A DNA stretch of 64,000 nucleotides, taken from positions 414,283 to 478,282 of the forward strand of contig NZ_CP013128.1 of NCBI RefSeq assembly GCF_001484045.1, read 5' to 3'. Both the position numbers and the translations under genes were made by a program. Under the pieces are notes generated by a model. That model worked only from the letters and a program-made list of their open reading frames with translations, made no database searches and had not been told where the DNA came from. This document shows positions 2,103 to 62,480 of the stretch, piece after piece (the first letter of the stretch is position 1; each line of letters starts with the position of its first letter). Source of the stretch: Mycoplasma sp. (ex Biomphalaria glabrata) (GTDB taxonomy: Bacteria; Bacillota_I; Bacilli_A; Mycoplasmatales; GCF-1484045).

Positions 2103-3875
2103 ATGAATAATTTAAATAAATATGATTGAAACTTGTTACCTTTGCTTCAAAACAAAACCATTGAACAGTGGAAAAAAGAAATTATTGAGCATTATGAAAT
2201 AATTTTTTCTTTGAAAGGGAAAATTACTAATAGTATTGATAATTTAAAAGAATTCTTAGATCACTCAAAAAAAAGCTCGATTATTGTTTCGAAAATAGGG
2301 TGTTATTTACATAATTTGGAAAATGTTGATTTATCTAATACAGAAATTTCCAAATTAGTTAACGATTTTGATTTATTTTTATATCCTTGAGGGATTAAAT
2401 TATCCTTTGTTTCCAACGAACTTAAAGATAATGTTGAAAAAATACTAAATATGTTGGATGAAGAAACTGCAATTTATAAAAAATCATTTGAGCGATTGAA
2501 AAGAAGAAAAAAACATAAAATTTCTAATCGAGAGGAAAAATTGTTGTCAGTATTATCGAATGCATTAGGTAATTCCGATGAAATATTTTCTAAATTAACA
2601 AATGTTGATTTTTCCTTTGGAGAAGTAGAGGATTCGCAAGGTGTAAAATATAAATTAACTCAGGGAACAGCCTCAAAACTATTGCGCGATAAAGACATTG
2701 TTCTTCGTAAAAATTCATATTTTGCTTTTTGAAAAGAATATAAAAAACATGAAAACACGCTATCAGCAACATATTACGCCAATCTTTGTGAAACTAGTGC
2801 CTTTTCCAAAATTTATAAATATAAAAGCTCACTAGAAGCAGCACTTTTTTCAGATAATGTTACTCCAAAATTTTATAATTTTGCACTTAATCAAATTGCT
2901 AAAAATAGTAAATTATTACTTAAATGAAGGAAAATTCTTGTTAACAAAACTGGTATTTCCAATCCAAAACCATGAGATTGAAATACAGAAATTTTTAGTC
3001 CAATTGATAAGAAATATGAAATTAATGATTCGCAAAGAATTATTAAAGACGCTTTGAGTATTCTTGGTTCAGATTATGTAGCAAAATTAGATAAAGCATT
3101 TGAGAATAATTGAATTGATTGACTACCAAAAGATTCCAAAAGAAGTGGTGCTTATTCGTATGGAGTTTGAGAGGGGAATCCCTACATCTTACTGAATTGA
3201 AATGGTAAATATTTAGATTTATCAACCTTAGCGCATGAGTTAGGTCATTCAATGCACACACTTTACTCAAATGAAAATCAAGATTACGAATATCACGATT
3301 ATCCGATTTTTTTAGCAGAAGTTGCCTCAACAACAAATGAACTTTTACTTGTCGAATATTTATTAAAGCATGAAGAAAATCCGCAAATGAGAGCATACAT
3401 TTTAGAGAATGCTATTAGAGAAATTATTGGAACAATTTACCGTCAAGCGTTATTTGCTGATTTTGAACAAATTGTTCATAATAAAGTTGACCAAAATGAA
3501 CCAATCACGTTGGATGTTTTTAAAAATATTTGTAAAGAATTATATCCAAAATACTTTCCAAAATTAAAAACAGAAACGTATGAGGATGAATTTGAAAATT
3601 TATGAGGATTATATGTTCCGCATTTTTATAGTGATTTTTATGTTTATAAATATGCAACTGCAATGATAAGTGCGATTTCATTTACGAATAAAATTTTGAA
3701 CGGTAATAAAGGCGATGTGGAAAATTATTTATCTTTTTTAAAAATGGGTTCAAGCGAATGACCAATTGATGCTCTTAAGAAATCTGGAGTTGATTTGCTA
3801 GATAAAAAAACTTATGATGAAGCATTTGAATTATTGGAGCATTATTTATGTGAATTGGAAAAGCTTTTAAATTAA
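2103..3875 (+). CDS. pepF: Oligoendopeptidase F (M3 family zinc peptidase)
   Basis: A 590-residue cytoplasmic zinc metallopeptidase of family M3B that cleaves short peptides; the family is usually about 600 residues. The zinc site HELGH is at residues 378-382, followed by the downstream Glu region FLAEVAST, the expected third ligand. Six or more TGA codons are read as Trp, so the gene looks broken under the standard code. The ATG at 2103 gives MNNLNKYDWNLLP, the typical N-terminus. There is no ribosome binding site; a TACAAT 9 bases upstream suggests a leaderless mRNA. It probably digests imported peptides for amino acids. Confidence 0.96.
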
Positions 3876-55795: not shown

Positions 55796-56455
55796 ATGAT
55801 CAATCAATTAGAATTAACAGAAGTTAAAAAAACCTTAAATAATTATTATTTAACAATTTTAGATTATTCAAATCAGATATTAAAAAAAATAGAAACCACA
55901 AGTTACGATTCAGCAAAATTAAAGCAATTAGTTGAACATGATTTAATCATCGATCGTGAACACTATAATTTAACAGAGGATTATATTTGATTTATTGCCA
56001 AAAAACGCCCACTAGCGTTAGATTTAAGAAGAATAATTGCTTATATTTTAATTATCAAAGAATTAGAACGTGTATCGGATGGATTTAAGAATGTTGCAAA
56101 AAATATTTTAAGTAACAATTGTCCACCTTCTGGTATCCACAAATATGTTGCCCCATTTTATAAAAAAATTGTTCATCAATTTGAAGATTTATCAAAAACA
56201 TTAACAAAGTACGACCTAGATACTTTGAAAAAAATTTCTGCTCAACACATGATAATTAATCAAGAATACCATAAAATCGCTAGTGAATTGAATCACCAAA
56301 CAGTTAAATCGACATCAGAATCAGAAGTAGCTTTGTTAACAAGTTACATTGTTTGTTTAAAAAATTTAGAAAGAACAGATGATCACTTAGTAAATATTTG
56401 TGAAGAAATTAACTATATTTATGAAGGAACTCATCAAATCGACAATGAAAAATAA
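55796..56455 (+). CDS. phoU: Phosphate transport regulator PhoU
   Basis: PhoU, 219 residues, all-helical with the two repeats that bind metal and damp PhoR signalling through PstB. RPLALDLRRIIAYILIIKELE and ELERVSDGFKNVAKNIL fit the family; LERTDDHLVNICEEINYI ends the second repeat. GAGGTG before the ATG. Presence of PhoU beside Pst and a sensor kinase makes a complete Pho system. Overlaps proS by 11 bases. Confidence 0.93.
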
Positions 56456-57869
56456 TCAATTAATTAAACACTCTATAATCGAAGATTCATCTAGTTGATA
56501 CACTAACGTTTTAAATCAAGGAAAATTTGTTAACTACGGTCTTGTAAAAGGAACAATTGCTTTAACTCCTTATTCTTGCAAAATTTGAGAAAACATTCAG
56601 AATCACTTTAATAATCAATTTCGTAAACTAAACATTGATAATGTTTATTTACCATCTTTAATTCCGTTAAGTGAATTACAAATTGAAAAAGATCACTTAG
56701 ATGGGTTCTTGCCAGAAGTGGCAATTGTCACACAAGTTGGTGAGAAAAAAATTGCTCCATTAGTTATTAGACCAACTAGTGAAGTTTTATTTTGTCATTA
56801 TTTTAAAAATAATTTAGTATCTTATCGTGATTTACCAATTCAATTAAATCAATGATGTAATGTTGTTCGTTGAGAAAAAAATACTCGCCCATTTCTGCGT
56901 AACTCAGAATTTTTATGACAAGAAGGGCACACTATTCACGAAACATCACTAGAAGCTCAAACGATGGTAGATAATGCTTTAAACACATATAAAGATTTTG
57001 TTAACAACACCTTAGACATTTATTGTTTGAGTGGCAAAAAGACTGAACGTGAGAAATTCGCAGGTGCTGATGAAACAAATACTATCGAGTTAATTATGAA
57101 GGATGGTCAGTGTTTACAATCTGCTACTTCTCATAATCTAGGACAAAATTTTACCAAGATGTTTGACATCGCTTACCAAAAAAATAATAAAAAAGAATTA
57201 CCGTTTCAGACATCATTTGGTATTTCAACAAGAATAATCGGAGGATTAATATTGTCACATGGTGATGACCAAGGTGCGATTATGCCACCAGACATTGCCC
57301 CATATCAAGTTGTTATTTGCACAATATTAGCAAACAAAGAACAAGCTGTATCGATAGAAGCAAAAAAATTGTATGTTTCATTAAACAAAAAGTATCGTGT
57401 CCTGTTAGATGATTCAGATAAATCGATTGGTTTTAAGATTAATGATTATGAAGTACAAGGAATTCCGATTCGTATCGAGATTGGACCAAAAAATATTGTT
57501 AATGATGAAGTAGTAATTGTTACTCGCATTAATGGTCACAAAGAAACTATTAATTTTACTCAAATAGATGAAAAAATTGCTGAGATTTTAAAAACAACTA
57601 AACAAGAATTATTTTTACGAAGTAAAACTAATTTAGAAAAGAAAATTAAAAAAATTAACAGCAAAACCGAATTTATTGATTGAATTATTAATCATAAGGG
57701 TGTAGCATTAGTGCCATTTTGTCTAGATGAACATCATGAAAAAAAGATCAAAGATGAACATGGTATTACTGCTCGTTGCATTTCAACAGACCATCACATT
57801 AATGATGAAGTTTGCTTTGAAACTAATAAACCCGCTAAAGCTTGAGTTTACTTTGGTAGAGCATATTAA
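56445..57869 (+). CDS. proS: Prolyl-tRNA synthetase
   Basis: ProRS, 474 residues, of the shorter archaeal/eukaryote-like type (no insertion editing domain) usual in Mollicutes. Motifs: RPTSEVLFCHYF (motif 2 region), [28 protein letters not shown] and GGLILSHGDDQGAIMPP (motif 3), ending KAWVYFGRAY. No ribosome binding site; the ATG is inside phoU, so it is probably translated by coupling as the end of the pst operon. Its last codons are duplicated at 58537-58582. Confidence 0.96.
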
Positions 57870-57871
57870 TT
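57826..57871 (+). repeat. proS 3' end repeat, copy 1 (intact gene)
   Basis: 46 bases covering the final codons and stop of proS. Matched by 58537-58582 with only two differences, both at third codon positions and silent (AGA/AGG and TAT/TAC). Confidence 0.85.
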
Positions 57872-57896
57872 TACCACTTTTTTAAAATAATTAATT

Positions 57897-57905
57897 TGTT
57901 AAAAT
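57897..57905 (+). promoter_or_regulatory. Extended -10 promoter for the 57937 gene
   Basis: TGTTAAAAT, the same extended -10 used by the S10 operon; about 25 bases of leader with TAGGGGAAA before the ATG. Confidence 0.55.
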
Positions 57906-57936
57906 TAATGAAAATTAAGTTAATGAGTAGGGGAAA

Positions 57937-58485
57937 ATGATTAAAGATGTATTAGAACTTGCATATAGAATTGGTAAAGGATCGATAAATGGTATTTTAA
58001 AAGAGTATGGAATTGTGGGCAAAAGAAAACAACGAGAATTTATTACTAAATTGAATTTAGAAATTAATAACACAATTTCTAATAAAAATTTAAATACAAA
58101 TAATAATTCAAATGAAAATAAAATTATAATTAATTGTAGTGAAAGCTTGTCATCAAAAGACAACAATTCAGACGAGAAAAAAACAGAACAAAGTGCGCGA
58201 TTTACTGAAAAAGACCTCTTAGATCATATTGAAAAATGAATAGATAAAACAAAACCAAATCAAAAAAAAGAAATTTTTAATTATGCACAGAAATTAATAA
58301 ATAGTTCAAATGGACAAGAACTTTTTTTACATAATTCGCCTCAAAAAACATTTGCTGACATGTTTGGTATAGATATAGGTTCAGGCTTCCATATTCGGGG
58401 ACAAAAAAATAGTCAATATTCGATTAAATTTAATTCTGAAGAAAGGAAAATTATATCCAAAATAATGAAAGAAAATCAAGAATAG
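57937..58485 (+). CDS. Hypothetical protein between duplicated proS ends
   Basis: A 182-residue soluble protein, basic at the start (GSINGILKEYGIVGKRKQRE), Asn- and Ser-rich in the middle and acidic at the end; no membrane segment. TAGGGG before the ATG and its own promoter. It is the only gene between the two copies of the proS 3' end, so it may be the cargo of an integrated element. No known domain seen. Confidence 0.7.
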
Positions 58486-58536
58486 TATTTTCTATTTAGA
58501 AAAAACACATTATCAAATGTAATATGAAATTTTTTT

Positions 58537-58582
58537 ATAAACCCGCTAAAGCTTGAGTTTACTTTGGTAGGGCATACTAATT
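58537..58582 (+). repeat. proS 3' end repeat, copy 2 (detached)
   Basis: A 46-base copy of the proS end, reading KPAKAWVYFGRAY plus TAA, 711 bases after copy 1. It is not attached to an intact gene, as for an attachment-type duplication. Confidence 0.85.
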
Positions 58583-58619: not shown

Positions 58620-58931
58620 ATGAAATATAAGGATACATTATGCCAAGTTAAACAGGCATTCTATAACTATGAATTAGCACAAATATTTATTCTGTCAGGA
58701 AAACAAGTGAACATTAATGTTAATTCAAAAAGTTTAACACCTGAAAAATATGTTGAGGTGATTAATTTTGTAATTAAAAAATTAAAAAAGGAAGAACAAC
58801 GAATATTAAATAATAATTTTCTAGAAAAAGATTTTCAAAATTGATGATGTGAATATTATTCACGTTCCACATACTATCGCTTATCGAAAGAAGCTTATGA
58901 TAATTTTTTAAATCTAATTAAGGAGATATAA
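58620..58931 (+). CDS. Small helix-turn-helix protein (sigma region 4-like)
   Basis: A 103-residue protein; residues 55-95 (LKKEEQRILNNNFLEK, then WWCEYYSRSTYYRLSKEAYD) resemble the sigma-70 region 4 / ArpU-type helix-turn-helix of mollicute and phage regulators. Two consecutive TGA Trp codons at 58842-58847. AGAGG six bases before the ATG; an in-frame ATG at 58596 is less likely. Its stop overlaps the next ATG by one base, forming an operon with the secreted protein. Confidence 0.6.
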
Positions 58932-60995: not shown

Positions 60996-61646
60996 ATGAA
61001 TAGCAAAAGTAATGTTTTTATATCATTTTCATATAATCAATCAAAGGATTGAAAAGACGAAATTAGCGAAATGTTAGTAAAAAAAGATGTTATAGTAGAT
61101 TATTCCGAAAAGACAGACAGAGATCATCAAAATAATCCAGCAATCTGAAATGCGTTAAAATTAAGAATTGCCGGAGCATCTGTAACAGTTGTTTTGTACT
61201 CTGATGATTTTGAACAAGGAAAAGGCGGAAAAGCAATGGAGAAAAAAGATGATGCTAATGAATTAGATCCGCAATTTAACCAAGGATGAATTTATAAAGA
61301 AATTAGAGAATCACTAGTGGATGCTCAAAATAATCCAGTTAATGGCATTCTCGTTATAATGCCTGATGAAATATATGATGAATATCATCAAGTTGTTTCT
61401 TGTACGAAAACATCAGAACCAAGAATCCAAATTTTCGCAGATACCATCCCCCCTATAATAAAAGAAAACATTTTAAATGTTCATGATAAATTTAAAAAAT
61501 CTGTATGCTCATGTTGTTGTAATTTTATTGAAGATTCATACATATCAATAATTAAATATTCTTCTTTTTGTAAAAATCCAGTTTATTACATTAGTGAAAC
61601 TAAGAAAAAAAAGGGTAGAGCAAAAGAATTCAAAATTCGATATTAA
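60996..61646 (+). CDS. TIR-like domain protein (ThsB/DUF1863 type)
   Basis: A 216-residue soluble protein with the MTH538/ThsB-type TIR-like fold: NVFISFSYNQSKDWKDEI (residues 6-23), ASVTVVLYSDDF (61-72), GWIYKEIRESL (97-107, with E102 in the place of the catalytic Glu) and GILVIM. In Thoeris defence, ThsB proteins make a cyclic ADP-ribose signal after phage infection. A Cys cluster (CSCCC) lies near residue 170. It is followed 13 bases later by a membrane protein, so the pair could be a sensor and effector. Family assignment moderate to good. Confidence 0.75.
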
Positions 61647-61659
61647 AAGAAGGTAAGAA

Positions 61660-62100
61660 ATGTACAATAAGGAAAATCATCTTCAAAGATTGAGTATTAT
61701 TATTGAAAGACAATCTAATTTTAGTATGAAATTTTATATTCTTTTATTTTCGTTAGTGTCCTTCACCATTCCTATTTATACATTTGCATTTGAAAGTGGA
61801 ATGTTTAAAAATACTTGTCAAACAATTCTTATTTCAATTTTCTCTTTCTTAGTGGTGAATACAGTTTCAATTGTATTTTTTTATAATTCCTATAAATATT
61901 TAAAAATGGAAAGATGCTTCATTATTTTGCAATCAAAAGTAAATAATGGGAAAATTAATGAAGAAAACTATGATTGAAAAAAGTTTTCCAAAGAGGAAGA
62001 AGTAAACAAAAAAACATTCGTATTCTGAAGTTCTCTAATAGCAATGATATTAATTGCGACTATATCTATTATATTGCCTATAATTCAAATATTTATTTAG
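61660..62100 (+). CDS. Three-helix membrane protein paired with the TIR-like gene
   Basis: A 146-residue protein with helices at about residues 24-43, 54-76 and 120-144, and a charged loop between the second and third. One TGA (61975-61977) and another in FWSSL encode Trp. AGAAGGT precedes the ATG. Could be the membrane-damaging effector of a TIR-signalled defence pair; this is inference from position only. Confidence 0.7.
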
Positions 62101-62249: not shown

Positions 62250-62480
62250 ATGAACAAAAAAGACATCTTAGACATTATCCAAAAAGAGTTAGAAAAGAAA
62301 AACGTTAAAATTAAAGTTAATGAAAATACAGTTATTAAGGATTTAAATATTGATTCATTAGATATTTTAGAATTTTCTATTAATGTTGAAAATGAATGTG
62401 ATGTTACAATTCCAGAAGATAAGTTATTAAAAATAAAAACAATTGGTGAATTTTTAGTTTTAATAGAGGCAAATAAATAA
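62250..62480 (+). CDS. acpP: Acyl carrier protein
   Basis: ACP, 76 residues, highly acidic and helical, with the phosphopantetheine site S36 in NIDSLDILEF. It carries acyl groups for lipid synthesis. Leaderless start by position. Alone, with no fatty acid genes nearby, as is common in mollicutes. Confidence 0.93.
   Translation: MNKKDILDIIQKELEKKNVKIKVNENTVIKDLNIDSLDILEFSINVENECDVTIPEDKLLKIKTIGEFLVLIEANK

Follow-up and report, generated by a model that had tools for sequence, protein, structure and literature searches.

A single orphan gene has been inserted between proS and its ancestral downstream neighbour, a homologue of MG284/MPN403, in a mollicute genome assembled as one contig of 647,830 bases. 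The insertion is 711 bp long and lies in a 64-kb window (the whole stretch of DNA that was analysed), where the final bases of an intact proS recur on the far side of the orphan. Judging from gene order in relatives, the insertion is particular to this lineage and the adjacency of proS and MG284 is ancestral. The explanation that we favour, tentatively and with a confidence just short of even, is that a small DNA circle or fragment recombined with the 3' end of proS, leaving a CIME-like insert. The features of the locus are as follows:

56445–57869, + strand: proS, proline-tRNA ligase (TIGR00408), intact; NCBIfam score 520.6 bits against a cut-off of 437, start codon from the sequence
57826–57871, + strand: repeat copy 1, the proS 3' end including the stop codon plus 2 nt, attL-like; from the sequence and shuffles
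57872–58582, + strand: lineage-specific insert of 711 bp; from the repeat and gene order in relatives
57884–57940, + strand: ybaB-like block upstream of the orphan, 89% identical to the interval before ybaB and ending at the start codon
57937–58485, + strand: orphan cargo gene P0001, 182 aa with TGA read as Trp; AGGGG ribosome-binding-like site before the ATG
58537–58582, + strand: repeat copy 2, the displaced proS 3' end, attR-like, at the ancestral MG284 junction; from sequence comparison
58620–58931, + strand: gene of the MG284/MPN403 family, ancestrally next after proS, with TGA read as Trp; NF045770 score 75.1 bits against a cut-off of 37.3

Because of the repeat, the exact borders of the insert are ambiguous, and 57826–58536 would describe it equally well. 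proS matches TIGR00408 through the last profile position and ends in copy 1, so the target gene has been restored. In M. genitalium, proS is MG283 and an acyl carrier protein gene is MG287; the proS described here holds the position of MG283, and an acyl carrier protein gene of this genome is at 62250–62480. Between the genes of the proS-MG284 cluster and acpP, at 60996–62100, a ThsB-like TIR gene (98 bits to PADLOC ThsB) and, after it, a gene for a small membrane protein form a second insertion in the same cluster, possibly a Thoeris-like pair without ThsA. An ATG upstream of copy 2 shares its frame, so that 58523–58580 could encode an 18-residue peptide ending in the proS C-terminus, probably by chance.

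The original prediction that the last 46 bases of proS recur 711 bases downstream was confirmed. The two copies are identical at 44 of 46 positions and differ by one A/G change (AGA/AGG) and one T/C change (TAT/TAC). Apart from their 34-nt identical core, the window has no exact repeat, direct or inverted, that reaches 22 nt, and dinucleotide shuffles gave no match at up to 3 mismatches. A 20-nt core, searched with up to 3 mismatches, has just two copies genome-wide. Ungapped identity in successive 10-nt bins is 10, 10, 10 and 9 and then at most 6, with 1/10 directly upstream, so the limits of the repeat are abrupt.

The nearest comparison genomes (n = 59) are all related at the order level, and gene order was compared in other families of that order, to which this genome also belongs. 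A scan of proS in named genomes returned mostly Clostridia at 42–48% identity, without a near relative. The gene past copy 2 is, by its profile match, a homologue of MG284/MPN403, an identity newly recognised here. proS and MG284 are adjacent in 16 relatives from four other families. The distance from the proS stop to the MG284 domain is 232–439 nt in 14 of these, the remaining two having 627 and 745 nt; here the domain lies 879 nt from the copy 1 stop and, by arithmetic, ~168 nt from the copy 2 stop. An old layout shared among relatives, which had been named as the sign of an old tandem duplication without mobility, was sought at 45 relative proS loci, and the duplicated end was present at none of them. 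Sequence downstream of proS in those 45 loci matched the proS end with best scores of 8 to 13, similar to shuffled tails, as compared to 39 here. Adjacency in 16 relatives and the lack of duplicated ends at all 45 loci together indicate that the 711 bp were inserted in this lineage and that copy 2 marks the old junction. The 745-nt gap belongs to relative G050 and contains an apparent transposase fragment (L157 752–1068), which suggests that the proS-MG284 junction tolerates insertions in other lineages too.

The insert had been described as holding one gene of no known family, which is true once TGA is read as Trp. P0001 contains one TGA, and in the host this codon outnumbers TGG by 532 to 23 over the 115 long ORFs counted. 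Its codon usage is host-like, ranking 68 of 115, and its GC content is low (24.8%). Searches of Pfam, PHROGs, PADLOC and NCBIfam gave P0001 no match above cut-off, and it has no relatives in plasmids, phages or IMG/VR and no convincing relative in 298 genomes of the order and 395 of the class. Matches in relatives at E values of 0.001–0.01 fall mostly in the Asn-rich middle or in short stretches, and we do not believe them. The best E value against the PDB was 0.46. The AlphaFold model, with a mean pLDDT of 45, was too poor for a fold search; residues 11–50 are helical, with pLDDT values of 54–67. From the helical N-terminus of this low-confidence model one might guess, weakly, at a small DNA-binding protein.

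Some 56 nt upstream of P0001 are 89% identical (E 1e-14) to the interval between tadA and ybaB (G000:C1:354925–354980). A 32-nt piece of this block, allowing two free positions, occurs genome-wide at only these two sites, with no control match. The similarity ends at functional borders, running from the tadA stop to the start codon. Thus the cassette contains two host-like pieces, the ybaB-like block and the proS end, the former having gone unnoticed until now. Since the block is ybaB-like and its similarity ends at the start codon, the insert is predicted to carry a host-type promoter and ribosome-binding region. The block links the insert with the present host or one of its close kin, and not with a distant source. 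Either copying in place or arrival from a sister lineage, along with the proS end, may explain its presence. We considered P0001 as a paralogue of ybaB and rejected it, as the two proteins are unrelated. tadA itself (L018 ~2970–3420, minus strand) is apparently frameshifted with its remaining frame continuing; either a base is wrong in the sequence or this gene, essential as a rule, is truly decaying.

It had also been proposed that silent-only changes between the copies reflect selection in another proS. Both differences are indeed silent, but the inference from them is weak. In the coding part of the repeat 22% of random single changes are silent, and if copy 1 could change only silently while copy 2 drifted freely, both differences would be silent with p ~0.13 (0.27 if only transitions are allowed). 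The comparison leans towards constraint on both copies, by a factor of ~4 to 8. AGG accounts for 54 of 1608 Arg codons and TAC for 541 of 2335 Tyr codons; both are minority codons here, which makes the copy 2 state unusual for this genome. Were copy 1 the one that changed, from AGG and TAC to AGA and TAT, this would agree with the AT bias.

In the recombination reading that we favour, a small DNA circle or fragment would have brought in one gene with a ybaB-like promoter, together with its own version of the proS 3' end. Crossing over with the chromosomal proS 3' end inside the shared ~46 bp would then have produced an intact proS (copy 1), the cargo gene, the displaced proS end (copy 2) and MG284, in that order. 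The result would be a one-gene, integrase-less insert between attL/attR-like repeats, behaving like a CIME or islet. The recombinase may have acted in trans or since been lost; alternatively, the crossover may have been of the RecA type, with DNA from a sister lineage. This reading is favoured because the repeat is an exact gene end with its stop, restores proS and has abrupt limits, because the insert splits ancestral neighbours and leaves copy 2 close to MG284, and because the relatives lack the duplicated end and both differences are silent, given the drift probabilities above. Identities of 89% for the ybaB-like block and 96% for the proS end are compatible with pieces from a near relative.

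Several results count against recombination. The insert lacks an integrase, as originally predicted, and the one tyrosine recombinase detected in the genome is XerC-like, below equivalog cut-offs, frameshifted and far from the insert; against the integron integrase model TIGR02249 it scores 43 bits (cut-off 265). We found no Resolvase-family recombinase in the genome. We rejected the XerC-like protein as the enzyme behind the insert, given its frameshift and its unrelated inverted repeats at dndC. From the tyrosine and Resolvase-family searches of this genome, nothing would obviously integrate at proS. Sister cassettes were sought in the window, nine 20-kb stretches and smaller pieces, ~40% of the genome. 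Among the 460 ORF 3' ends sampled, a repeat within 8 kb was found only for proS and for one tandem-paralogue cluster, so a family of cassettes was rejected, the other ends yielding tandem paralogues only. A degenerate pattern search found no IMG/VR contig with the proS-end repeat, the cargo has no convincing relative in the order and class genomes, plasmids, phages or IMG/VR, and the literature searched held no report of elements at proS ends. Furthermore, a plain foreign-element model does not predict a host-like promoter block. The claim of an element integrating at the proS end therefore stands as to the insertion, which is real, but not as to mobility, given an insert without integrase, no second such element in the ~40% sampled and no relative of the cargo in the collections searched. 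We regard as doubtful a more novel reading, in which a minimal genome houses a mobile one-gene cassette of ~0.7 kb that has its own host-type promoter, attaches at the proS 3' end and relies on a recombinase acting in trans.

The XerC-like gene (L179 3627–4601, or G000:C1:20626–21600) is of separate interest: perfect 36-bp inverted repeats, spaced 903 bp apart, flank it. The 5' end of the dndC coding sequence lies in one arm, and the other holds an ATG and the matching first codons of a second frame, an arrangement that resembles an inversion switch. Inversion would exchange the start signals, which makes the locus, with an HNH gene and a HATPase gene next to it, a candidate switch for phase-variable DNA phosphorothioation (Dnd). 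An A8/C4 run lies near the point where the recombinase frame breaks.

The second short host piece in the insert makes a patchwork origin a serious rival, possible although on balance somewhat unlikely. Template switching or illegitimate repair would have copied the ~56 nt upstream of ybaB and the 46-nt proS end around a captured ORF, with no site-specific recombinase and no mobility. This would account for both short host-like duplications together and for the absence of a suitable integrase, and the divergences (6–7 of ~57 positions in the block, 2 of 46 in the proS end) are compatible with a single age. A random patch, however, would not be expected to stop at functional borders as the ybaB-like block does, which suggests selection, and the repeat extends slightly beyond the gene end and leaves proS whole, in the manner of att sites. 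The silent-only differences also argue, weakly, against it.

An unlikely alternative is that a larger integrative element with its own integrase once occupied the proS end and later shrank by deletion until a single gene was left between its att sites. The layout would fit the strict definition of CIMEs, elements that have lost their integration and transfer genes and retain attL and attR (PMC5704250), but the insert shows no trace of genes for an integrase, a relaxase or a phage. Still less probable is an old tandem duplication without mobility, in which the proS end was doubled first and the gene arose or inserted between the two copies afterwards. A direct repeat by itself gives no order of events; against this, the duplication is absent from relatives of four families, and no degenerate proS sequence could be demonstrated upstream of copy 2. 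We rejected apparent homology there (local score p ~0.015), as other parts of proS match too and an anchored test gave p values of 0.05–0.18. An assembly artefact is hardly credible: the frameshifts in tadA and the recombinase gene hint at base errors or real decay elsewhere, but the genome is a single contig, the cargo reads as an uninterrupted ORF whose codon usage matches the host, and an assembly error would hardly create 711 bp of spurious insert that includes two silent changes.

Should the insert be mobile, it would rank with the smallest att-bounded elements known, and a 648-kb genome would be seen to take up genes through a trans-acting recombinase. If immobile, it still shows an orphan gene with a predicted host-type promoter entering a conserved operon of a minimal bacterium, with the adjoining essential gene left unbroken. 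How does it compare with known systems? Integron gene cassettes are similar in size and in carrying one gene. In contrast to them, the insert has its own promoter-like block and no attC-like fold, as the repeat copies fold no better than shuffles (z 1.1 and 0.9), and the genome has no integron integrase at cut-off. MICE are the main known conjugative islands of mycoplasmas. They are 22–37 kb long, with inverted-repeat borders and a DDE recombinase (PMC7466169), unlike a 711-bp insert with direct repeats and no integrase. Islands inserted by tyrosine integrases at the ends of tRNA or protein genes share the att-like repeat at a housekeeping gene end, but here the insert lacks an integrase and there is no second example in the sampled genome or in relatives. 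CIMEs and att-flanked islets come closest, with direct repeats of a gene 3' end around integrase-less cargo and a restored target gene (PMC5704250). They differ in that the insert is only 711 bp, with one gene and a host-like promoter block, and that no trace of a parent element or parent integrase was found. As a matching integrase was sought in the genome and not found, although other strains may carry one, the insert should not be filed as a CIME, and its mobility is only putative. With its duplicated proS end around an orphan, it looks like the product of integration at a gene end.
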